DNA of 64,000 nt from Gammaproteobacteria bacterium (GTDB taxonomy: Bacteria; Pseudomonadota; Gammaproteobacteria; HTCC5015). The position numbers and the translations under genes were made by a program. Under the pieces are notes generated by a model. It saw only the letters and a list, made by a program, of their open reading frames with translations, was not told the origin of the DNA and made no database searches. The stretch lies in contig JACDDA010000005.1 of assembly GCA_013817245.1 (NCBI GenBank), positions 1 to 64,000 on the forward strand, read 5' to 3'. Position 1 is the stretch's first letter. The number at the start of each line of letters is the position of its first letter. Shown one piece after another: positions 35,114 through 50,500 of this stretch.

Positions 35114-37732
35114 ATGGAATGGTTGTTGTTGGCGGGGTTAATTGTCGCGGTGGTTTCAGCGCATTCGCGGATTTCTATTCTTAAAGAAGAATTAGTATTA
35201 ATGCGCCGCCGTTTGGATGGCGCTGCATCACCTGTTGTTGATAAAACGTTTTCTGCCAATCAACATGCCAGCGCGGCAATTAAGCAAGAGCCACAAAATG
35301 TTGTATTAACCGACACAGCAACACAAAAACCGCATTCTGCATGGCAAGCGCCTGCGTCAGTAAATGATGTTGACGCAACGACTCTGTTAAGCGTAGAAAA
35401 AATTTCGTTTATCAAAGAAAAATTAATGGTTTGGTTCGGCGGCGAAAATGGTTTGGTGCGTATCGGTGCGCTGGTATTTTTTTTAGGCCTCGCATTTTTA
35501 ATTCGTTATAGCGCCAGTCATGGTTGGATCTCAATAGAGTTGCGTTTGTTAGGCGCAGCAATTGCGGGCGCTGTGTTATTAGCAGCAGGTTGGCGATTGC
35601 GTGAACGCAGACCTTATGGCGCTTTATTGCAAGGCACAGGTTTAGCCGTTTTATATTTAAGTTTATTTGCCGCTTGGAAATTAGCCGGTCTATTTACGAT
35701 CTCCATTGTTTTTGGCTTAATGATTTTTGCAGTGGCTTTAACAGTCGCTTTAGCCGTCATGCAAAATATTCAAGCTTTAGCCGTGCTCGCTTTAGGTGGC
35801 GGTTTGTTAGCACCTATTTTAGTGTCGAATGATTCAGGTAATCACATCGGGTTATTTACTTATTATGCTTTATTAAATATTGCCGTAGGCAGTGTGGCGT
35901 GGTTCAAAAGTTGGCGTATTTTAAATTTATTGGCCTTTGTGCTAACGCTAGTGGTAGCAACCGCGTGGGGTGTGTTGCGGTTTGATAATGAGCATCTGGC
36001 GAGTTGCCAATTTTTTATTGGTTTGTTTGCCATTATATATAGTGTCATTGCGGTGTTGTTTGCTTTGCGTCAACCGTTAAGCCGTTTAGGTTGGGTTGAT
36101 AGCACCTTAGTTTTTGGCGTGCCGTTAGCTGCATTTACTTTATTGACGGGCATGTTGCATGAACAACCGCGTGTATTAGCCGCGTGGGCATTCGGTGGTA
36201 GTAGTTATTATGCAATGTTGGCGATTGTTTGTTGGTATCGGTGGCGTGATGCATTTAAATTATTAATGGAAAGTTTTAGTGCCGTCGCCTTGGGTTTAAT
36301 TACTCTAGCGGTGCCGTTAATTTTTAGCGGTGTTGAATTGGCATCGGTGTGGGCGATTGAAGCGACAGCATTGGTATGGGTGTCCGTCCGACAAGCGCGT
36401 TATTACCGCGTTATTTTTGGCGTGTTGTTACAAGTGGCTGCGGGCATTGCGCTATTAAATATACATACACCCGATAGCAGTCTGTTTGTATTAAACGATG
36501 TGTTTGTGACCCGTTTTGTGTTGGTCTTGGCAGGTTTGTTAAGCGCTTATCATTTATACAAAAGTGTAATGCGCTCTGTTTGGGAAAATGTGGTGCGCCA
36601 AAATTTGTTATTAAAGCTAGAAAAATATTTATTGTTATGGGTTGCCGCTTGGTGGTTGTGGACGTGTCATGATGAAATTGATTATCGCTTAGACGCAGCG
36701 TATGAGTTATCTGCTTGGTTAATAAGCTTGCTGGCGACGAGTTTTATTTTATTACTGTGGGAAAAGAAAGGTCAATGGTTAACGTTAGCCGGGCAGTTAC
36801 CGATTTTGTTATTGGGTTTGGTGGTCATAGCGTGGATTACATTAATGCAGTTCGCGCCTTATGAAAATGGTCTAGGTTTTGTGTGGGCAGCAGGATCAAT
36901 GTTAACGCTGCTGTATTTTTATTTGCGCGAATCATTTGATCAGGAAAATTCGCCAGTTAGTTTAAATGATGCGCATGCTATTTTCTTGTGTTTGTTAAGT
37001 GCTTTGTTGTTGTGGGGCGGTTCACAACAATTGTTAGCAAGTGGCATCGCGAGTAGTTGGGTGTGGGTATTTGTTTTATTAGGTTTTGTAACGTTGTTAC
37101 TGTTGGCTAGTTGTTTGCGAGTGTGGCCTCTGAATCGTTATCGTGCGGTGTATTTAGTTCAGCTCATGTCTTTATTGGTGATTGCGGCTTTAGTATGCGT
37201 GCTAATTAATAGTGTTACTGATGCCGTTATTGTTGCGCCATTTCCGTATTTTCCATTGTTAAATCCTGTTGATCTTAGTGTGCTGGCTTTGTTAGGGGCG
37301 ATATATCACTGGCAAAAGGTAGTGATGAAGGATGTAGATTTGCCGGCATCGTTAACAACGCGCCAATGTTTGATGGCAATAGGTTTGACCTTGTTCGTTT
37401 GGTTAAGCGCCACGGCTGCGCGTGTGCATTATCATTTTTATGATTTGCCTTATGCATTAGATAGTTGGTGGGCTTCGCAACTACTGCAAGCGACTTTAAC
37501 GATTACATGGGCCTTAAGCGCAATTGCATTGTTGATTTTTGCCAGCCGCAAACAACAACGCGATGGGTGGAATATAGGCGCTGCTTTAATGGGCTTGGTG
37601 ATTGTTAAATTGTTTTTTGTTGATCTAGACGAACGCGATACTTTATATAGCATCACGGCATTTTTGATGGTCGGTGCTTTGTTGTTAGGTGTGGGTTACG
37701 TTGCGCCTATGCCTCCTAAAGTAGTTAAATAA
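35114..37732 (+). CDS. DUF2339 polytopic membrane protein
   Basis: A very hydrophobic 872-residue protein. A single N-terminal helix is followed by a soluble coiled segment (ISILKEELVLMRRRLDGAAS) and a polar linker to about residue 95. Then comes a long series of more than 20 membrane helices, including the family marker WFGGENGLVRIGALVFFLGLAFLIRY and GAALMGLVIVKLFFVDLDERDTLYSI at the end. The DUF2339 family has no established function; the second half repeats the general character of the first. It is likely co-transcribed with the next gene, 31 bases downstream. Confidence 0.93.
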   Translation: MEWLLLAGLIVAVVSAHSRISILKEELVLMRRRLDGAASPVVDKTFSANQHASAAIKQEPQNVVLTDTATQKPHSAWQAPASVNDVDATTLLSVEKISFIKEKLMVWFGGENGLVRIGALVFFLGLAFLIRYSASHGWISIELRLLGAAIAGAVLLAAGWRLRERRPYGALLQGTGLAVLYLSLFAAWKLAGLFTISIVFGLMIFAVALTVALAVMQNIQALAVLALGGGLLAPILVSNDSGNHIGLFTYYALLNIAVGSVAWFKSWRILNLLAFVLTLVVATAWGVLRFDNEHLASCQFFIGLFAIIYSVIAVLFALRQPLSRLGWVDSTLVFGVPLAAFTLLTGMLHEQPRVLAAWAFGGSSYYAMLAIVCWYRWRDAFKLLMESFSAVALGLITLAVPLIFSGVELASVWAIEATALVWVSVRQARYYRVIFGVLLQVAAGIALLNIHTPDSSLFVLNDVFVTRFVLVLAGLLSAYHLYKSVMRSVWENVVRQNLLLKLEKYLLLWVAAWWLWTCHDEIDYRLDAAYELSAWLISLLATSFILLLWEKKGQWLTLAGQLPILLLGLVVIAWITLMQFAPYENGLGFVWAAGSMLTLLYFYLRESFDQENSPVSLNDAHAIFLCLLSALLLWGGSQQLLASGIASSWVWVFVLLGFVTLLLLASCLRVWPLNRYRAVYLVQLMSLLVIAALVCVLINSVTDAVIVAPFPYFPLLNPVDLSVLALLGAIYHWQKVVMKDVDLPASLTTRQCLMAIGLTLFVWLSATAARVHYHFYDLPYALDSWWASQLLQATLTITWALSAIALLIFASRKQQRDGWNIGAALMGLVIVKLFFVDLDERDTLYSITAFLMVGALLLGVGYVAPMPPKVVK

Positions 37733-37763
37733 CTGAAAGTATTTTAAAGAGTAGGAATTTATT

Positions 37764-38279
37764 GTGCCATTTACGCCATTGCATATGGGGCCCGGCTTAC
37801 TAATCAAAGCTTTGTTGCAAAGCAGTTTTAGTTTAATGGTGTTTGGCTGGGCGCAGATTGTGATGGATATTCAACCGTTGATTGTGTTGATAAGCGGCGA
37901 GGGACATCTGCATGGTTTTACGCATACGTATGTCGGCGCCAGTTTGCTTGCGGTGTTTGTTGCGTTGAGCGGTAAATATTTGGCTGAATGGTTGTTGCGA
38001 TGTTTTTCGAATGACAAGCAAGGTTTTATTGTTATTACCTGGTGGGTAGCTTTTCTCAGTGCCTTTATTGGCACTTATAGTCACGTGATATTAGACAGTA
38101 TTATGCACGTTGATATAGAACCTTTATCACCGTTTTCATTTGCAAATGGTTTGTTGGGCATTATGTCGGTAGAAGCGCTGCATAAGTTATGTTTGTACAG
38201 TGGTTTACTCGGCGCCATTTTGTATTTTGCTATTGAGCAATACAGTCTATTTATGCAAGGCCGCAAGCATGATGAGTAG
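37764..38279 (+). CDS. YdjM-like membrane-bound putative metal-dependent hydrolase
   Basis: A 171-residue protein starting with GTG (MPFTPLHMGPGLLIKALLQ), with four or five hydrophobic helices. Histidines and acidic residues in membrane-proximal motifs (TPLHMGPG, LHGFTHTYVGASL, GTYSHVILDSIMHVDIEP) resemble the His/Asp pattern of the YdjM/DUF457 family. Whether it hydrolyses anything is unknown. It is followed by 79 bases before serS that hold a TAGAAT -10-like element at 38314. Confidence 0.8.
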   Translation: MPFTPLHMGPGLLIKALLQSSFSLMVFGWAQIVMDIQPLIVLISGEGHLHGFTHTYVGASLLAVFVALSGKYLAEWLLRCFSNDKQGFIVITWWVAFLSAFIGTYSHVILDSIMHVDIEPLSPFSFANGLLGIMSVEALHKLCLYSGLLGAILYFAIEQYSLFMQGRKHDE

Positions 38280-38343
38280 CGAGGGAGTGCATGTCATCTG
38301 CAGCTGAATCCGTTAGAATAATGTCCGTTATTTTTCCTTTTGA

Positions 38344-39648
<1,305 letters not shown>

Positions 39649-39667
39649 GCCCAACGCGATTTTCAGC

Positions 39668-39705
39668 TGGTCATGCCGAGGTGTTTTTCGGTATGATTGC
39701 GCCCC
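39668..39705 (+). promoter_or_regulatory. Candidate promoter of the tRNA-Ser(UGA) gene
   Basis: A weak -35 TGGTCA (39668-39673), an 18-base spacer and TATGAT (39692-39697) are followed by TGCGCCCC. The -10 element lies 44 bases before the mature tRNA. A GC-rich discriminator is typical of stringently controlled tRNA promoters. Confidence 0.5.
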
Positions 39706-39741
39706 TCATCGCATGGCCTTGCGCCGGTGTTGAGTTGGTTC

Positions 39742-39831
39742 GGAGGGGTGGCAGAGCGGTTGAATGCACCGGTCTTGAAAACCGGCAGGGATTCACGTCC
39801 CTCGTGGGTTCAAATCCCACCCCCTCCGCCA
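39742..39831 (+). tRNA. tRNA-Ser (anticodon UGA)
   Basis: A complete 90-base class II tRNA. Acceptor arms GGAGGGG and CCCCTCC pair over 7 bp, followed by discriminator G and encoded CCA. The D loop reads AGCGGTTGAA. The anticodon arm CCGGT-CTTGAAA-ACCGG places TGA at 39776-39778. A long variable arm (AGGGATTCACGTCCCT region) and the T arm GTGGG-TTCAAAT-CCCAC complete it. It reads UCA and other UCN serine codons. Confidence 0.98.
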
Positions 39832-39909
39832 TTTATATATTCTCATCTGTCTTATCTCCCCAGCGAATTTGATTTCCCAAGAGAACGACATGCTTCAACA
39901 AACCTCTGC

Positions 39910-40227
39910 ATGAAATTTTTCTTTCTGTATGTAGCCACTGCATTAGCAGAAATCGTGGGATGCTACTTACCTTATTTATGGCTCAAAGAACAACGCTCTG
40001 TTTGGTTGCTGCTACCGGCGGCCTTAAGTCTGGCGTTATTTGTATGGCTATTAACCTTGCACGATACCGCAGCGGGGCGGGTGTATGCGGCTTATGGCGG
40101 GGTTTACATCGGCATTGCTATTTTGTGGCTTTGGGCGGTTAATGGCGTGCGCCCTACACAGTGGGATGTTGCAGGGGTTTTAATCGCGTTCACGGGCATG
40201 GCCGTTATCATGTTGCAGCCGCGTTGA
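39910..40227 (+). CDS. YnfA/UPF0060 family membrane protein
   Basis: A 105-residue four-helix inner-membrane protein resembling small multidrug-resistance transporters in size. It opens [25 protein letters not shown] and carries the family marker [47 protein letters not shown] (two stretches, about 58-100). Transport function is not established for the family. The frame runs back across the tRNA gene, so the ATG at 39910, where homology starts, is used. Confidence 0.93.
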
Positions 40228-40286
40228 TGGGCTGCTTAAGTTGCGTAAGTATTAAAGATGTTGTCTACACATTGATCGAGGTTTAA

Positions 40287-40619
40287 ATGACAAAAACGTT
40301 ATACAAAGTGCGCTTCTTAAATGAAGACAAAGTTTATGAAATTTACGCACGTCATGTGTATCAAGGTGATCTATATGGTTTCGTCATCATCGAAGACATC
40401 TTGTTTGATGAAACCTCCGGCGTGCTAGTCGATCCGGGCCAAGAGCGTTTAAAAACTGAATTTGCCGCCGTGAAAATGACCATGGTGCCGATGCATTCCG
40501 TGATTCGCATTGATCAAGTGGAAAAACAAGGCACGGCAAAAATCACCAGTATCGATGGCAAACATATCAATAATGGCCCTACACCTATTTATACGCCACG
40601 CGGTGATGCAGGTGCTTAA
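40287..40619 (+). CDS. DUF1820 family protein
   Basis: A 110-residue soluble protein of the DUF1820 family, found mainly in gammaproteobacteria and of unknown function. It begins TKTLYKVRFLNEDKVYEIYARHVYQGDLYGFVIIEDILF and continues with DPGQERLKTEFAAVKMTMVPMHSVIRIDQVEKQG. It has no signal peptide or membrane helix. The family is often near tRNA or translation genes, as here, but that does not establish a role. Confidence 0.92.
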   Translation: MTKTLYKVRFLNEDKVYEIYARHVYQGDLYGFVIIEDILFDETSGVLVDPGQERLKTEFAAVKMTMVPMHSVIRIDQVEKQGTAKITSIDGKHINNGPTPIYTPRGDAGA

Positions 40620-40655
40620 ATGAATTAATGGAATAGTGGTAATCGTTGGACTTTA

Positions 40656-40904
40656 TTGGCGTGTGTTTGGACCCTGATCGTTGTTGTTATGCTTCTCATC
40701 GCGTGGCGAGTAAGTCCGTATTTTTATTGGTTTAGCTACATTTTAGCGGGTGCGCTGGGTGTGCCTGCGACCCTTGCTGCGACTATATTTGCGATGCGTG
40801 ATCCGGCATGTCGGTTTGTGAGCATAGCGTTCTTAAATCTCGTGATGTTTACCGTGCTGATGATATTTGGATTTAAATATTTACTGTCGATTCATTGGGC
40901 ATAA
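40656..40904 (+). CDS. Small membrane protein, unrecognised, uncertain start
   Basis: An 82-residue frame with three likely hydrophobic helices (about 3-20, 27-46 and 56-78). The only plausible starts are TTG at 40656 or ATG at 40689, and neither has a convincing Shine-Dalgarno. The codons just upstream in frame (WNSGNRWTLL) also read like membrane-protein lead-in, but there is a stop at 40626 and no standard start in between. No family recognised. It may be a decayed or unusually initiated gene. Confidence 0.5.
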   Translation: MACVWTLIVVVMLLIAWRVSPYFYWFSYILAGALGVPATLAATIFAMRDPACRFVSIAFLNLVMFTVLMIFGFKYLLSIHWA

Positions 40905-41050
40905 AGCGCTTTTGCGCAGCAGCGGTTGAATTTACTCAGCGCTTGCGCTATAAAGCGCAGCGTTGTGGCTTATTATGTACAGCGTTAACCGGATACCAGA
41001 CCACTGGTGGCGGTTCGGGTTGAGATATCCGAAGTGTGTATAAAAAACGA

Positions 41051-41077
41051 GCGGAGCCTTTGGGCTCCGTTACGTTT
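41051..41077 (+). terminator. Hairpin terminator upstream of tRNA-Ser(GGA)
   Basis: The 7-bp stem CGGAGCC / GGCTCCG (41052-41058, 41063-41069) with loop TTTG has an A-run before it and TTACGTTTT after. It would end transcripts from the DUF1820 region. The preceding 150 bases (40905-41050) hold two short GCGC-type hairpins and no gene. Confidence 0.6.
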
Positions 41078-41117
41078 TAAGCGAGCCGCATTTTTTTATC
41101 GCTAAATGTTCGTGTCC

Positions 41118-41208
41118 GGAGAGGTGTCCGAGTGGTTGAAGGAGCACGCCTGGAAAGTGTGTATACGTTAATAGCGTATCGAGGGTTCGAATCCCTCTCT
41201 CTCCGCCA
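41118..41208 (+). tRNA. tRNA-Ser (anticodon GGA)
   Basis: A complete 91-base class II tRNA. The acceptor GGAGAGG pairs with TCTCTCC (one G-U), then discriminator G and CCA. The anticodon arm CACGC-CTGGAAA-GTGTG carries GGA, reading UCC and UCU. A long variable arm (TATACG...CGTATC) and the T arm GAGGG-TTCGAAT-CCCTC are present. Confidence 0.98.
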
Positions 41209-41218
41209 GTTATAAAAC

Positions 41219-41242
41219 AACACGCGCAAGCGTGTTTTTTTA
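41219..41242 (+). terminator. Terminator of tRNA-Ser(GGA)
   Basis: The perfect 7-bp stem AACACGC / GCGTGTT with tetraloop GCAA (41219-41236) is followed by five more Ts. It begins 11 bases after the tRNA CCA end. Confidence 0.9.
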
Positions 41243-41364
41243 TGGCTGAAATAAAATAGCGGAATTTGAAGCCGAGAAATTAAATAGTTGGATGACCACT
41301 AGGGATGGTGGAAATGCAAAAAAAAGAAAAGTAGTTTTTGCCGCGAAATATCGTCAATATTCAG

Positions 41365-41434
41365 GATTAACGATTAACGATTAACGATTAACGATTAACG
41401 ATTAACGATTAACGATTAACGATTAACGATTAAT
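41365..41434. repeat. Heptanucleotide tandem repeat (GATTAAC)9 plus one variant unit
   Basis: Nine perfect head-to-tail copies of GATTAAC (41365-41427) are followed by GATTAAT (41428-41434). Every frame contains TAA, so it is not coding. It ends 17 bases before the ATG of the TerC-family gene, so it lies in the promoter or 5' leader. The other 120 bases between it and the tRNA terminator show no gene. Repeats of this kind change length by slippage. Confidence 0.97.
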
Positions 41435-41451
41435 GAGGACGGAATTTCCAC

Positions 41452-42465
41452 ATGATACTTTTCCCATTTTCAGATTATTGGTGGTTTTATTTAGGATTTA
41501 TTACTTTTGTTTTGGTAATGCTCGCGCTAGATCTTGGTGTGTTCCATAAAAAATCTCATGAAATTAGTTTTAAAGAAGCGGCTATCTGGACAACGATTTG
41601 GATTAGTCTTGCCCTCATCTTTAATTATTTGTTCTATCTGTATGCTCAATATCGTTTCTCGACACACGAGTTTTACACATCGATTCCCGGGTTTGATCCT
41701 GATGGTCAGGCTAAAATTTCAGCACTAGAGTTTTTAACTGGTTTTGTCGTTGAGAAATCACTCGCAATCGACAATATCTTTATTTTTGCTGTGGTATTTG
41801 CTTATTTTGGAATTCCGAAACAATACCAACACCGAGTGTTGTTCTGGGGGATTCTTGGCGCTCTGGTGTTCCGCGGTATTTTTATTGCTTTAGGTTCCGT
41901 GCTCATGCAGTACCACTGGGTAGTTATTTTCTTTGGCGGTTTGTTGATATTAACCGGCGTTAAAATGTTTTTCGCTGGCACTGAGCCTCAGAGCCTAGAA
42001 AACAATTTCATTATTAAAATAATTAATAAAATATTTAGAGTCCATCCTCACATTGAAGGGCAGAAATTCTTCTTTAAAAAAAATGGCCTTACATATGTAA
42101 CGCCGCTATTTTTAGCGCTGATCTTTCTTGAGCTGAGCGATATTATTTTTGCGGTAGATTCTGTGCCAGCAATTTTTGCGCTGACGAAAGAACCATTGAT
42201 TGTTTTTACGTCAAACATTTTCGCAATTTTAGGTTTAAGATCGATGTATTTCATGTTGGTAGGCGTTATGGACAGATTTGGTTACATAAAATATGGATTA
42301 GCGTCAGTATTAGTCTTTGTGGGGTTAAAAATGGTATGGCTCAACGAGGCCTTTGGTGGAAAGTTTCCGATTAATTGGTCATTGATAATTATCGGTGCTC
42401 TCATTGGTTCTTCTATTTTGGTTTCGATTATTATTGATCGAGCAAAACAAAAAAAGCCCCATTGA
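41452..42465 (+). CDS. TerC/Alx family integral membrane protein
   Basis: A 337-residue protein with about nine membrane helices. Conserved TerC-family acidic motifs are VEKSLAIDNIFIFAVVFAYFG (about 99-119) and LELSDIIFAVDSVPAIFALT (about 223-242). Alx of E. coli has similar length, and family members are linked to manganese export and metal homeostasis. GAGGACGGA upstream is the likely ribosome-binding site, placed just after the heptamer array. No yybP-ykoY riboswitch is recognisable. It ends 32 bases before the response-regulator gene and may share its transcript. Confidence 0.94.
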   Translation: MILFPFSDYWWFYLGFITFVLVMLALDLGVFHKKSHEISFKEAAIWTTIWISLALIFNYLFYLYAQYRFSTHEFYTSIPGFDPDGQAKISALEFLTGFVVEKSLAIDNIFIFAVVFAYFGIPKQYQHRVLFWGILGALVFRGIFIALGSVLMQYHWVVIFFGGLLILTGVKMFFAGTEPQSLENNFIIKIINKIFRVHPHIEGQKFFFKKNGLTYVTPLFLALIFLELSDIIFAVDSVPAIFALTKEPLIVFTSNIFAILGLRSMYFMLVGVMDRFGYIKYGLASVLVFVGLKMVWLNEAFGGKFPINWSLIIIGALIGSSILVSIIIDRAKQKKPH

Positions 42466-42497
42466 AACCTTTTGGATTTTGATTATATTCAAGCCTG

Positions 42498-43190
42498 ATG
42501 TCGCTTATGAAAATTCTAATCGTTGAAGATAATCGGGATATTTTAGAAAACATTTGCGCTTATTTAGAAAGCCAGGCGCATGTTGTCGACGTTGCGGCGG
42601 ACGGTAATACGGCTATGCATCTGCTCGGCAAAGAAACCTATGATGTTATTGTTTTGGATATTTTATTGCCGGGTGTTAATGGTATTGAAATTTGTCGGCG
42701 CTTACGCGAAGACTTACATAATGCGACACCTGTTATCATGTTAACGGCGCGCGATAAAGTCGATGATCGTGTGCAAGGCTTGGACGTTGGCGCAGATGAT
42801 TATTTGGTAAAGCCTTTTTCCTTAGTAGAATTAGACGCTAGGATTCGTGCGCAATATCGGCGTAGCCGAGTCAACGAACAATGGGGCTTGTTACAAGTCG
42901 GCGAACTGATCTGTGATGTTGCTCAACATCGTGTCACGCATAGAAGTATGGAAATTACTTTAAGCCCGATTGGATTTCGTATTTTACAAACGTTAATGCA
43001 AGCCTCGCCAAATGTCGTCCCTCGTGAACAGTTAGAGCGCGATATATGGGGCGACAATGTACCAGATAGTGATGCTTTGAAAGTGCATATTCATGCTTTG
43101 CGCGATGCGATTGATAAGCCCTTTGGCACTAATTTTTTATATACTGTGCGGGGCATAGGATTCAAAATGGTGAACTTTGATGCGTCTTAA
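42498..43190 (+). CDS. OmpR-family response regulator
   Basis: Two-component transcription regulator of 230 residues; an ATG at 42507 (MKILIVEDN) is an equally good start. The receiver domain has the acidic pair E10/D11, phospho-acceptor D54 (VIVLDILLPG), switch Thr in VIMLTARD and Lys in DYLVKPFS. The C-terminal winged helix includes REQLERDIWGDNVPDSDALKVHIHALRDAI and the closing YTVRGIGFKM. It overlaps the kinase gene by 11 bases. Its targets plausibly include the phosphotransferase operon downstream. Confidence 0.96.
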   Translation: MSLMKILIVEDNRDILENICAYLESQAHVVDVAADGNTAMHLLGKETYDVIVLDILLPGVNGIEICRRLREDLHNATPVIMLTARDKVDDRVQGLDVGADDYLVKPFSLVELDARIRAQYRRSRVNEQWGLLQVGELICDVAQHRVTHRSMEITLSPIGFRILQTLMQASPNVVPREQLERDIWGDNVPDSDALKVHIHALRDAIDKPFGTNFLYTVRGIGFKMVNFDAS

Positions 43191-44436
43191 ACTTCAGTTA
43201 CGGATAACGCTGTATTTTACCGGTTTAGTTTTTATTACGTGTTTATTATTTTCAATTGCTATGTTTTCTGTAATACATACGATTGAAGATAAATTATTTC
43301 GCAACTACGTAGAAAATTTTTCGATTTGGGCTATTAACTTGATTGAGTATTCACCTGCCGGAAGTTTCCAAAATTGGCCGGCGGGCATTAAAATTTATAC
43401 TGATAAAACGCTTAATAAACCCACTTTTCTAAAAGACATGCCGCCCGGATTTTGGGAGGTTGAGTTACCTGAGCGCGATTTTTTTGTCTTAGTTAAAGCG
43501 CACGCGCAATCGATGTATTTCATTACGTTTGATCAAACAGATTTTGAAACTCGCGAAATACGGATTTTATTTTCTTTAATGCTCAGCGTATTAACACTTA
43601 CCTTGCTCGCGTATTGGACTGCGCGTCGTATTTCAGCCAGCGCTATTGCGCCGGTTATTGCCTTGGCGAATGATGTTAAGAATGATCAGTTAATTTCTGT
43701 AGAAAATAATTTTTATGCTGATGATGAGGTTGGATTTTTAGCGTTAGCTTTTGCAGAAAAACTCACCGAGCAACAGGAATTTCTCAATCGCGAACGTTTA
43801 TTTACAGGTGATATTAGTCATGAGCTAAGAACACCTTTGATGGTTATGCAAAGTGCTGTAGATGTAATGTCATTAGCGCGTGACCGTTTAAATGATCAAG
43901 AGTTAGCCGCTTTAGCGCGATTGCAGCGTGCTTTAAACGACTCAGCTGAAATGGTCGCGGCATTTTTACAGTTATCACGCGCGATGGATGGTTTCAGCGC
44001 TGAGCAGGCTAACTGCGAGATTAATAAAATGGTCGAGCAATGTTTGGATGAACAATTAAGGAATAGCGCGCGACCTAATGTGAAGATCGAATATATTCAG
44101 CTTGCGGTATTGCAGGTACAGGCGAATCCAGCTTTAGTTGCAGTTGTCATTAATAATTTAATTAAAAATGCTTTCGCTTATACTCTCGAAGGCGCAATAA
44201 GTGTGGTAGTGGATAAGCAATCACTGCGCATTACGAGTTCAGGGGATGCGTTACCTGCCGATATCAGCGCGCATATATTTGAGCGCTTCGTTAAAGCTAC
44301 CGATTCTTCGGGCGCGGGGATCGGCTTGTCTATTGTGAAACGCATCTGTGAATACCATCACTGGCTAGTTACTTATCAATGTCATGTGGGCGGCCATGAA
44401 TTTACGATCACTTGGCCGTCTGATTCGTCTCATTAA
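43180..44436 (+). CDS. Sensor histidine kinase
   Basis: Membrane kinase partner of the preceding regulator, 418 residues from the ATG at 43180. Two membrane helices (about 8-32 and 128-147) flank a periplasmic sensor domain of about 95 residues that matches no family I know. A HAMP-like segment follows, then the H box DISHELRTPLMVM, the N box INNLIKNAFAYT, and a G box GAGIGLSIVKRICEYH. The D box (ITSSGDALP) is short, and the ATP lid is compact. The upstream TTG of the same frame is not needed. Confidence 0.95.
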   Translation: MRLKLQLRITLYFTGLVFITCLLFSIAMFSVIHTIEDKLFRNYVENFSIWAINLIEYSPAGSFQNWPAGIKIYTDKTLNKPTFLKDMPPGFWEVELPERDFFVLVKAHAQSMYFITFDQTDFETREIRILFSLMLSVLTLTLLAYWTARRISASAIAPVIALANDVKNDQLISVENNFYADDEVGFLALAFAEKLTEQQEFLNRERLFTGDISHELRTPLMVMQSAVDVMSLARDRLNDQELAALARLQRALNDSAEMVAAFLQLSRAMDGFSAEQANCEINKMVEQCLDEQLRNSARPNVKIEYIQLAVLQVQANPALVAVVINNLIKNAFAYTLEGAISVVVDKQSLRITSSGDALPADISAHIFERFVKATDSSGAGIGLSIVKRICEYHHWLVTYQCHVGGHEFTITWPSDSSH

Positions 44437-44460
44437 TCCTCTGTATTAAGCTAAGCAGTT

Positions 44461-44477
44461 ATTAACGTTTTGTTAAC
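44461..44477. promoter_or_regulatory. Candidate response-regulator box, TTAAC direct repeat
   Basis: ATTAAC-GTTTT-GTTAAC is a direct repeat of TTAAC with 11-base period, lying 46 bases before the LTA-synthase-like gene and just after the kinase gene. OmpR/PhoB-type regulators bind such tandem half-sites; PmrA boxes have the similar TTAA-N7-TTAA pattern. Assignment to the neighbouring regulator is inference. Confidence 0.5.
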
Positions 44478-44522
44478 GCAAGAGCTGCTATTTTCTTCCT
44501 CTGTTTTTCTAGAGGAAGTGTT

Positions 44523-46505
44523 ATGTTGTGGTTACGTGCAATAGTAAGTTGTGTTGGGGCCTTAGTGCGTTCCCGCTTTCTGCTTCTTTTCAGCATGGCG
44601 CTGCTGGCTTTAACGAGCTTTTTTATTACGCGGATAATTCTGGTTTTTAATCTTCCGGAGCTGCACTTTTCTTTTATTGACGTGTTGTTAGCTATGCTTG
44701 TGGGCTTAGTGTATGACATTGGTTTTATTGCATACGCGCTCGGATTGTTGGCTTTATATGTGGCGTTGGTGCCAAACCGTGTTTGGCAGTCTACTTTTAA
44801 TAAAATATTTATTCATGTGTTGGTATTTGCGAGTATCTATGTTTTATGGTTCATAGGTGTGGCGGAGTGGCTTTTCTGGGATGAGTTTGGCGCACGCTTT
44901 AACTTCATCGCGATTGATTATTTGGCTAATAAACGTGAAGTTTTTGACAATATTAAAGAGTCATATCCGCTAGGTGGTTTGCTCTCGGCAATGTTCGTGT
45001 TTAGTACGATTATCTATCTTGTGATTAGACGATCTGTTCGGCGTTCGTTGAGTTTTCATGCGCCATTGTCTACTCGTTTTCAGCTTGGCAGTTTATTTCT
45101 GATTGCTCCTATAGTGATTTTTCTATGCTTAGGTCAGGGTGCTCGTCAAATATCAAATAACGTTTATGTGAATGAATTAGGCAGTAATGGTCCTTATCAA
45201 TTTTTTGCAGCTTTGCGTAATAATCAAATAGATTACGGTCAGTTTTACGTGTCCTTGGATGACAAACTAATTTCGAAAACCTTGAAATCTGAAGTAATTC
45301 AGCCAGATGCTCGTTTTATAAATGACGATCTGTATTCGATTCGGCGCGAGGTCGTTAATACTGGGCCTGAGAAGCGTTTAAACATCATGTTGATTATGGT
45401 CGAAAGTTTGAGCGGCGATTTCATGCAGCATTTTGGAAATGAGGCAGGACTTACACCGAATTTAGATAAACTCGCCGATAACAGTTTATTTTTTACGCAA
45501 TTTTATTCTACGGGTACTCGGACTGATCGTGGCTTGGAAGCGGTTACTTTATCGATTCCACCAACCCCGGGTCGTTCTATTGTGAAACGCATTGGCAAAG
45601 AAAAAAACATGTGGTCGTTAGGCAATGTTTTAAGAAAGAAAGGTTATGACGCTCGCTTTATTTATGGAGGACGCGGTTATTTTGACAATATGAATGAATT
45701 TTTTTCAGGTAATGGCTATGAAATTGTCGATCAAAGTCGCGTAGCCAATAACGAAATTGGTTTTGAAAATGCGTGGGGGATGGCTGATGAATTTACTTTT
45801 ACACAAGCCATTAAACAGGCAGATATTTCTTACAAAGCGGATCGACCATTTTTTCACCACATTATGACCACCTCAAATCACCGGCCTTATACCTATCCTG
45901 ATCGCCGGATTGATATCCCTTCTGGTCACGGACGGAATGGTGCCGTGAAATATACTGACTGGGCCATTAATAATTTTATAGAGCGCGCTAAGTATAAGCC
46001 GTGGTTTGCTGATACTATTTTTGTGATTGTTGCGGATCATTGCGCGCGCAGTGAAGGAAAAGTGCGATTACCCCTTAACCGTTATCATATTCCTTTGATT
46101 ATCTATAGCCCAAAACATATTGCTGCTGCAAAAGTGGATAAAGTGGCTAGTCAAATTGATGTGGCTCCCACTTTATTAGCATTATTAGGTATGAGTTATG
46201 AGTCTAATTTTTTCGGTAAAAATATTTTAACAATGACGCCAGCAGAAGAGCGCGCCTTAGTAGGAAGTTACCAGTATTTAGGACTTTATCAGCACGGGAA
46301 AATGTCTATATTGGGTCCGAAAAAAATAGTTATGCAACAAGAAGATGCCTTAAGCGAAGATCCTATTGTGACAAAACCAGCTGATGATGATCCTTTATTG
46401 TTAGAAAATATCGCTTTTTATCAAGGCGCTAGCTTTATCTATCGAAATAAACTTAATGCTTGGCCGGTAGATGATGCTCTTAAGGCTAAGCCTTCAACTC
46501 ATTAA
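44523..46505 (+). CDS. LTA synthase family sulfatase-fold phosphotransferase
   Basis: A 660-residue inner-membrane protein with a periplasmic catalytic domain. Five N-terminal helices run to about residue 215. An alkaline-phosphatase-fold domain follows: metal site IMLIMVESLSGDF, nucleophile region YSTGTRTDRGLEAVTLSIPP (Thr in GTRT), HIMTTSNHRPYTYP, and VIVADHCARSEG with the late metal ligands. Family members move phosphoglycerol, phosphoethanolamine or similar groups from phospholipids to envelope polymers. The Gram-negative context suggests glucan or lipid A modification rather than teichoic acid. GAGGAAG precedes the ATG. A PAP2 phosphatase follows 5 bases later. Confidence 0.94.
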   Translation: MLWLRAIVSCVGALVRSRFLLLFSMALLALTSFFITRIILVFNLPELHFSFIDVLLAMLVGLVYDIGFIAYALGLLALYVALVPNRVWQSTFNKIFIHVLVFASIYVLWFIGVAEWLFWDEFGARFNFIAIDYLANKREVFDNIKESYPLGGLLSAMFVFSTIIYLVIRRSVRRSLSFHAPLSTRFQLGSLFLIAPIVIFLCLGQGARQISNNVYVNELGSNGPYQFFAALRNNQIDYGQFYVSLDDKLISKTLKSEVIQPDARFINDDLYSIRREVVNTGPEKRLNIMLIMVESLSGDFMQHFGNEAGLTPNLDKLADNSLFFTQFYSTGTRTDRGLEAVTLSIPPTPGRSIVKRIGKEKNMWSLGNVLRKKGYDARFIYGGRGYFDNMNEFFSGNGYEIVDQSRVANNEIGFENAWGMADEFTFTQAIKQADISYKADRPFFHHIMTTSNHRPYTYPDRRIDIPSGHGRNGAVKYTDWAINNFIERAKYKPWFADTIFVIVADHCARSEGKVRLPLNRYHIPLIIYSPKHIAAAKVDKVASQIDVAPTLLALLGMSYESNFFGKNILTMTPAEERALVGSYQYLGLYQHGKMSILGPKKIVMQQEDALSEDPIVTKPADDDPLLLENIAFYQGASFIYRNKLNAWPVDDALKAKPSTH

Positions 46506-46510
46506 AAGAG

Positions 46511-47212
46511 ATGATCCGGGCTATGAATAATAGGGATACCGAAACCTCACATTTCTGGTGGCAACATGCTGGCATACCGATTTTATTGTTTGCTATATTT
46601 TCATTGCTAATAATTTATTTTGAAATTGATTTTGCGTTAGCGGATGCGTTATTTCAGTGGCAAGATCAAGAATGGAATTTGCGTGGCGCTCATTGGTTTA
46701 AAACCATTTTTCATGACGGTGGACGTTATCTATCGCTGAGTATCGGTTTATTGGTTTTATTATTGTGGATTGCGGGCGCGGTGGTAGCTGTACTCAAACC
46801 TTATCGGCGCGGATTTATTTATTTGTTAATCGCGGGTTTGTTATCGAGTGCGTATATCGGATTATTGAAAAAATTTAATCCTGCTTATTGCCCTTGGGAT
46901 TTATTGCGTTACGGTGGTCAACATGAATACATCTCTCCATTTGCGTGGTCGCAATGGGGTGGTGTTATGGGTCATTGTTTTCCCGCCGCACATGCTAGTG
47001 CGGGTTATGCATGGATAGGCATTTATTTTTTTTGTTTAGTGTATGCGTCACGTTATCGTTGGCATGGTTTAGTCAGTGCATTATTGTTGGGTACGATCTT
47101 AGGTTTTTCTCAGCAATTAAGAGGCGCGCATTTTATTTCACATGATGTTTGGACTCTGATGATTTGTTGGTTTAATAGTTTGTTTTGGTATGCTGTTTAT
47201 TTGCGACGGTGA
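46511..47212 (+). CDS. PAP2 superfamily membrane phosphatase
   Basis: A 233-residue inner-membrane protein with six helices and the three PAP2 motifs: KKFNPAYCPWDL (C1), HCFPAAHASAGYA (C2, with PAAH where PSGH is usual) and RGAHFISHDVWT (C3). Such enzymes cleave or transfer phosphate on lipids such as undecaprenyl diphosphate, lipid A or phosphatidylglycerol phosphate. Its pairing with an LTA-synthase-like enzyme and a two-component system suggests recycling of the lipid product or remodelling of lipid A. The ATG at 46511 follows AAGAG; 46523 is an alternative. Confidence 0.93.
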   Translation: MIRAMNNRDTETSHFWWQHAGIPILLFAIFSLLIIYFEIDFALADALFQWQDQEWNLRGAHWFKTIFHDGGRYLSLSIGLLVLLLWIAGAVVAVLKPYRRGFIYLLIAGLLSSAYIGLLKKFNPAYCPWDLLRYGGQHEYISPFAWSQWGGVMGHCFPAAHASAGYAWIGIYFFCLVYASRYRWHGLVSALLLGTILGFSQQLRGAHFISHDVWTLMICWFNSLFWYAVYLRR

Positions 47213-47273
47213 TTAAATTGACTTATCTTAAATAAAGATTAGCTGGATTTTGAATAAATAAATTCACCTAAGT

Positions 47274-47306
47274 TTTTAGGGTTTAACTTATTGCTAAACC
47301 CTAAAA
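47274..47306. terminator. Inverted repeat between the convergent PAP2 and RND genes
   Basis: Perfect 12-bp arms TTTTAGGGTTTA (47274-47285) and TAAACCCTAAAA (47295-47306) enclose a 9-base loop. The outer A and T tracts give a bidirectional terminator-like structure, although the stem is AT-rich. Confidence 0.55.
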
Positions 47307-47332
47307 CTTATTTTATGAGTATGCGTTACAGA

Positions 47333-50500
<3,168 letters not shown>

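Follow-up and report, generated by a model that had tools for sequence, protein, structure and literature searches.

The window analysed here, a 64-kb stretch (64,000 nucleotides) of a gammaproteobacterial contig, carries a tandem heptamer array in the intergenic gap between the terminator of a tRNA-Ser gene on one side and a gene for a TerC-family membrane protein on the other (Table 1). The first-pass annotation had described ten units ending 17 bases before the start codon of a TerC-family gene, and each element of this description was borne out: nine perfect GATTAAC units (41365-41427) are followed by a variant tenth unit, GATTAAT (41428-41434), TRF calls the array at 41365-41433 (period 7, 9.9 copies, 100% match, score 138), the gap to the ATG at 41452 is 17 bases, and the downstream protein matches PF03741 and the Alx subfamily of NCBIfam. 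The genes for a response regulator, a sensor kinase, an LtaS-like enzyme and a PAP2 protein follow TerC on the same strand.

Table 1. Features of the TerC locus, with one array-bearing locus of a second genome (G326) for comparison.
Feature	Position	Strand	Basis
tRNA-Ser(GGA), upstream of the array	41118-41208	+	ARAGORN, Rfam tRNA
Hairpin resembling an intrinsic terminator of the tRNA transcript, AACACGCGCAAGCGTGTT followed by a T-run	41219-41236	+	Consensus scan
Tandem heptamer array, (GATTAAC)9-GATTAAT	41365-41434	+	Sequence, TRF, pattern searches
Shine-Dalgarno-like GAGGA, 12 nt before the ATG	41435-41439	+	Sequence; inference
TerC/Alx family membrane protein, 337 aa	41452-42465	+	Pfam PF03741; NCBIfam TIGR03718; loci, tree
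OmpR/PhoB-class response regulator, starts 32 bases past TerC	42498-43190	+	Domain searches
Sensor histidine kinase	43177-44436	+	Domain searches
Candidate response-regulator box, TTAACG-N5-TTAACG, 11-bp spacing	44462-44478	+	Pattern search
LtaS/phosphoglycerol-transferase-like sulfatase-superfamily membrane enzyme	44523-46505	+	Domain searches
G326 example, array	L174:12456-12497		
G326 example, gene behind the array	L174:12499-19347		

Because the 7-base unit puts TAA in all frames, on either strand, the array is non-coding on both strands, and a coding repeat was rejected on account of these stops. At its downstream end, the variant unit and the G that follows it create an out-of-frame ATG (41433-41435), the short frame of which overlaps the TerC start. 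The terminator-like hairpin should restrict read-through from the tRNA-Ser gene into the array. A consensus scan found no promoter-like site scoring at least 9/12 in the 128 bases from the hairpin to the array, and no sigma-70 promoter of at least 9/12 upstream of TerC. TerC and the two-component genes may be cotranscribed, or a promoter-like site (10/12) at 42462-42489 may drive the latter separately; such sites are about equally frequent in the region and in its shuffles. Rfam cmscan of positions 36000-48000 found no riboswitch, and control of TerC/Alx by an Mn riboswitch (yybP-ykoY) was rejected, there being no Rfam match in the leader.

TerC proteins of B. subtilis help to load Mn into exported enzymes, LtaS included (PMC10550928), and by analogy the LtaS-like enzyme encoded downstream is a plausible Mn-dependent TerC client, so that the two may form a chaperone-client pair. 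This pairing is not conserved in the fetched loci, since no relative of the LtaS-like gene was found in the flanks of the fetched Bdellovibrionota or other TerC loci. If it is true, the pairing would give the gene order across 41452-46505 a purpose.

The array is far above chance expectation. It is the only one in the window with a unit of 5 to 9 bases and at least three perfect copies, and 50 Markov simulations of the window with the same dinucleotide make-up yielded a mean of 0.1 such arrays and a maximum of 3 copies. It is a heptanucleotide SSR/VNTR in the sense of at least three perfect tandem 7-bp units beyond chance. Across the 2.27 Mb genome, searched by pattern only and for runs of three or four units, the GATTAAC array occurs once, and it is also the only place where four TAAC cores follow one another every 7 bases.

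TerC shares as much as 87% identity with proteins from Bdellovibrionota MAGs, while its best relatives in sampled genomes of the same class reach 39-52% identity, and it is present in one of the four genomes of the family. A 107-row tree places it within a 35-row clade (support 100/99), the remaining rows of which are Bdellovibrionota and three Bacteroidota MAGs. These comparisons indicate that TerC was probably acquired horizontally from a Bdellovibrio-like donor, by transfer rather than mis-binning, because ordinary host genes lie to either side on the window's contig. The three Bacteroidota MAGs with a Bdellovibrionota-type TerC (L030, L032 and L034; 77-82% identity) suggest repeated transfer from predators, or mis-binning. 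No attachment-site duplication of tRNA-Ser(GGA) was found in the window. In a relative from the same family (L098), the 3' end of the same tRNA-Ser(GGA) recurs some 970 bases further downstream (copies at about 1915-1960 and 2893-2935), adjoining an integrase-like fragment, which marks an integration site in the family.

The upstream regions of donor-type loci are arranged differently from that of the captured gene. In 24 Bdellovibrionota loci, TerC is preceded by a LysR-type gene in divergent orientation, with its start some 95-180 bp away, and several donor-type upstream regions, as read from their sequences, bear a promoter resembling TTGATx-N17-GATAAT. This LysR-type gene is absent from the window, and the array stands where donor-type loci have the LysR regulator and the promoter, both of which are missing here. 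An upstream array was seen in none of 40 other TerC upstream regions inspected, nor was a GATTAAC array found in any other fetched TerC locus.

Among 369 sampled genomes of the class, one other, G326 (1.54 Mb), carries GATTAAC in runs of three units; it belongs to another family of the same class and has 111 matching positions. Eight stretches fetched from it (L172-L179, G326:C1) hold 15 arrays, every one of which ends GATTAAC-GATG, with the ATG opening a large protein; a long ORF lies behind 13 of the 15, and of the other two, one is truncated where the stretch ends and one has no long ORF listed. Two of the proteins were scanned and carry an inverse-autotransporter beta domain, cadherin domains and a Fib_succ_major domain. 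The arrays contain 3, 3, 5, 5, 6, 6, 9, 9, 10, 10, 12, 12, 14, 15 and 16 units (9 different lengths), and the first 400 bases after them share a mean identity of 98.7%. GATTAAC arrays therefore change length faster than their flanks, a result for paralogs and not for strains at a single locus, and the adhesin paralogs of G326 are likely a length-variable family. A literature search on adhesin-linked arrays returned nothing. There is no Shine-Dalgarno sequence in the G326 arrays, and most have a TATAAT or TAAAAT a short way upstream, so that they probably represent the 5' UTR. They share with the TerC array an identical heptamer, in the same orientation and in the translation start region, and differ from it in belonging to a multi-copy adhesin family, in ending exactly at the ATG without a Shine-Dalgarno sequence, and in coming from another family. 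They support the mutability of the motif and its role as a leader, not a function at TerC.

More loosely defined arrays of this type are scattered across the class. Of the 369 genomes, 19 contain TTAACNN in runs of four units (5 for the reversed control). None of the fetched arrays (L180-L207) lies inside an ORF of at least 100 aa, and some closely precede start codons while others do not. In L186, L192 and L194, for example, such arrays adjoin runs of other heptamers. A phylum-level sample of 398 genomes contained no further run of four GATTAAC units. Short GATTAAC runs are present in two viral contigs, in one case in a degenerate intergenic array and in the other overlapping the end of a phage gene; neither has a link to TerC, and a viral origin was rejected.

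The TerC array belongs with known heptamer arrays of the hmw1A and TAACTGA kind. The (ATCTTTC)n arrays of hmw1A and hmw2A in H. influenzae are likewise perfect heptamer arrays of about ten or more units that leave the reading frame unaffected, and are promoter/5'-UTR repeats just upstream of a gene for a membrane or surface protein (PMC8262952). The hmw arrays vary between isolates, lie between two mapped promoters and lower expression, with hmw1A expression dropping as 7-bp units increase (PMC8262952). At TerC the gene behind the array encodes a transporter instead of an adhesin, and upstream of that gene the promoter-like sites score only 7/12, with none of at least 9/12; by analogy, unit number could alter output in a graded way in both. 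The TAACTGA repeats of Beggiatoaceae, Cyanobacteria and Bacteroidetes are also TAAC-containing, AT-rich, intergenic heptamers with stops in all frames, and the TerC array resembles them in lying in forward orientation shortly before a start codon (PMC4679880). In the TAACTGA register, its unit reads TAACGAT and is not identical to theirs. It comprises ten units in a single array, as against 169 sets of two to six units, and is accompanied by a Shine-Dalgarno-like element, unlike the TAACTGA repeats (PMC4679880); in its 2.27 Mb genome, the search for runs of three or four units did not reveal many sets. The GGGNATC repeats of Xanthomonas and Nostoc are another over-represented class of intergenic heptameric SSRs with strong length variation, but are G-rich and form quadruplexes, which GATTAAC cannot (PMC4692102).

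The first-pass annotation had read the array as slippage-prone and as able to shift the spacing of a promoter or leader. The first part is a sound reading for an array in a leader/promoter region, given the lengths of the G326 paralogs (3-16 units) and the analogy with hmw1A. A shift in promoter spacing is unlikely: at 70 bp the array is too long to sit within a -35/-10 spacer, and any promoter placed after it would overlap the Shine-Dalgarno sequence.

In light of these comparisons, we favour, with moderate confidence, the explanation that the array is a slippage-born heptanucleotide VNTR in the leader/promoter region of a captured TerC gene, any effect of which would be graded. TerC would have been captured behind the host tRNA-Ser gene with neither its native promoter nor its native, divergent LysR-type regulator. 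The array would then have arisen, and would grow and shrink, through replication slippage, a variability that we infer for this locus. The intergenic, non-coding gap would tolerate it; inside a gene it could not persist because its TAA-containing 7-base unit has stops in every frame. If there is an effect, unit number would grade TerC mRNA output or leader length in the manner of hmw1A, and would act neither as an on/off frame switch nor through titration of a regulator. Candidate routes to such a graded effect are transcript length, mRNA stability, protein binding or a weak TTAACG-N17-AACGAT ladder. The array could at most tune TerC quantitatively.

A strong rival, quite possible if short of probable, is that the array is a neutral product of slippage in the gap left by the insertion of TerC, tolerated as non-coding sequence and having no meaningful effect on expression. 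The TTAACNN arrays of the class occupy many intergenic positions, including gaps with no following start codon, and heptameric SSRs are over-represented in bacteria in general, which may reflect polymerase geometry (PMC4692102). Models of the leader point the same way. Predicted accessibility of the Shine-Dalgarno sequence and AUG hardly responds to unit number, ranging between 0.25 and 0.29 for a full leader and between 0.42 and 0.54 for a short leader over 0-15 units, and the leader is not more stably folded than its shuffled versions (z -1.29). An 8-base complementarity, GUGGAAAU (41308-41315) with AUUUCCAC (41444-41451), flanks the array; the minimum-energy fold of 41290-41475 does not contain this pairing, which could be due to chance. 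What speaks against neutrality is that the array occupies precisely the region where translation of one gene starts, a position that recurs in G326 and in Beggiatoaceae.

That recurrence could also be accommodated by a translational leader, in which S1, a Csp-like protein or the ribosome binds UUAAC/UAAC heptamers and more units give more binding. MacGregor proposed such binding for TAACTGA repeats, most arrays of which lie just upstream of start codons in Orange Guaymas Maribeggiatoa (PMC4679880), and the G326 arrays, with their promoter-like upstream motifs and their ends at the ATG, are 5'-UTR-like and have no Shine-Dalgarno sequence. TerC, however, has its own Shine-Dalgarno-like GAGGA between array and ATG, and with one array per genome no network is visible. 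To our knowledge, no protein binds these heptamers. We consider such a leader unlikely at TerC. A broader version of the idea would unite the TAAC heptamer arrays at starts (those of TerC and G326, the TAACTGA arrays of Beggiatoaceae and the other TTAACNN arrays found in 5% of sampled class genomes) as one class of transcribed leader element, read by a conserved translation or RNA-binding factor, with unit number tuning new or variable genes; this is speculative, and we think it decidedly unlikely.

A further reading takes the units as a promoter ladder, in which TTAACG and AACGAT, separated by 17-base spacers, form overlapping weak sigma-70 promoters that scale with unit count. Six overlapping TTAACG-N17-AACGAT sites do occur in the array, and at 7/12 they are level with the best others in the region, but such a match is weak and under the scan threshold, and the spacing is a trivial consequence of the period (3 x 7 + 2), which makes this reading very doubtful. 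Binding or titration of the adjacent response regulator, proposed in the first-pass annotation from a TTAAC core in common with a candidate box at 44461, is extremely unlikely: TTAAC is indeed present in the unit, the unit and the box at 44462 even have TTAACG in common, and the regulator gene starts only 32 bases downstream of TerC, but the array offers spacings of 7, 14 and 21 as against the ~11-bp half-site spacing of OmpR/PhoB-class dimers and of the box itself (TTAACG-N5-TTAACG), and the genome as a whole shows no enrichment of the box (34 matches at no more than one mismatch, 39 for the reversed control), so that the array lacks both the half-sites about 11 bp apart and the enrichment of an OmpR/PhoB-type binding array.

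If unit number does alter TerC output, a captured metal-transport gene that arrived without its native regulator would have acquired a hypermutable dial, and foreign genes would have a testable route to controlled expression. The occurrence of the same heptamer in front of the G326 adhesin family opens heptamer leader arrays to testing beyond the well-studied pathogens.
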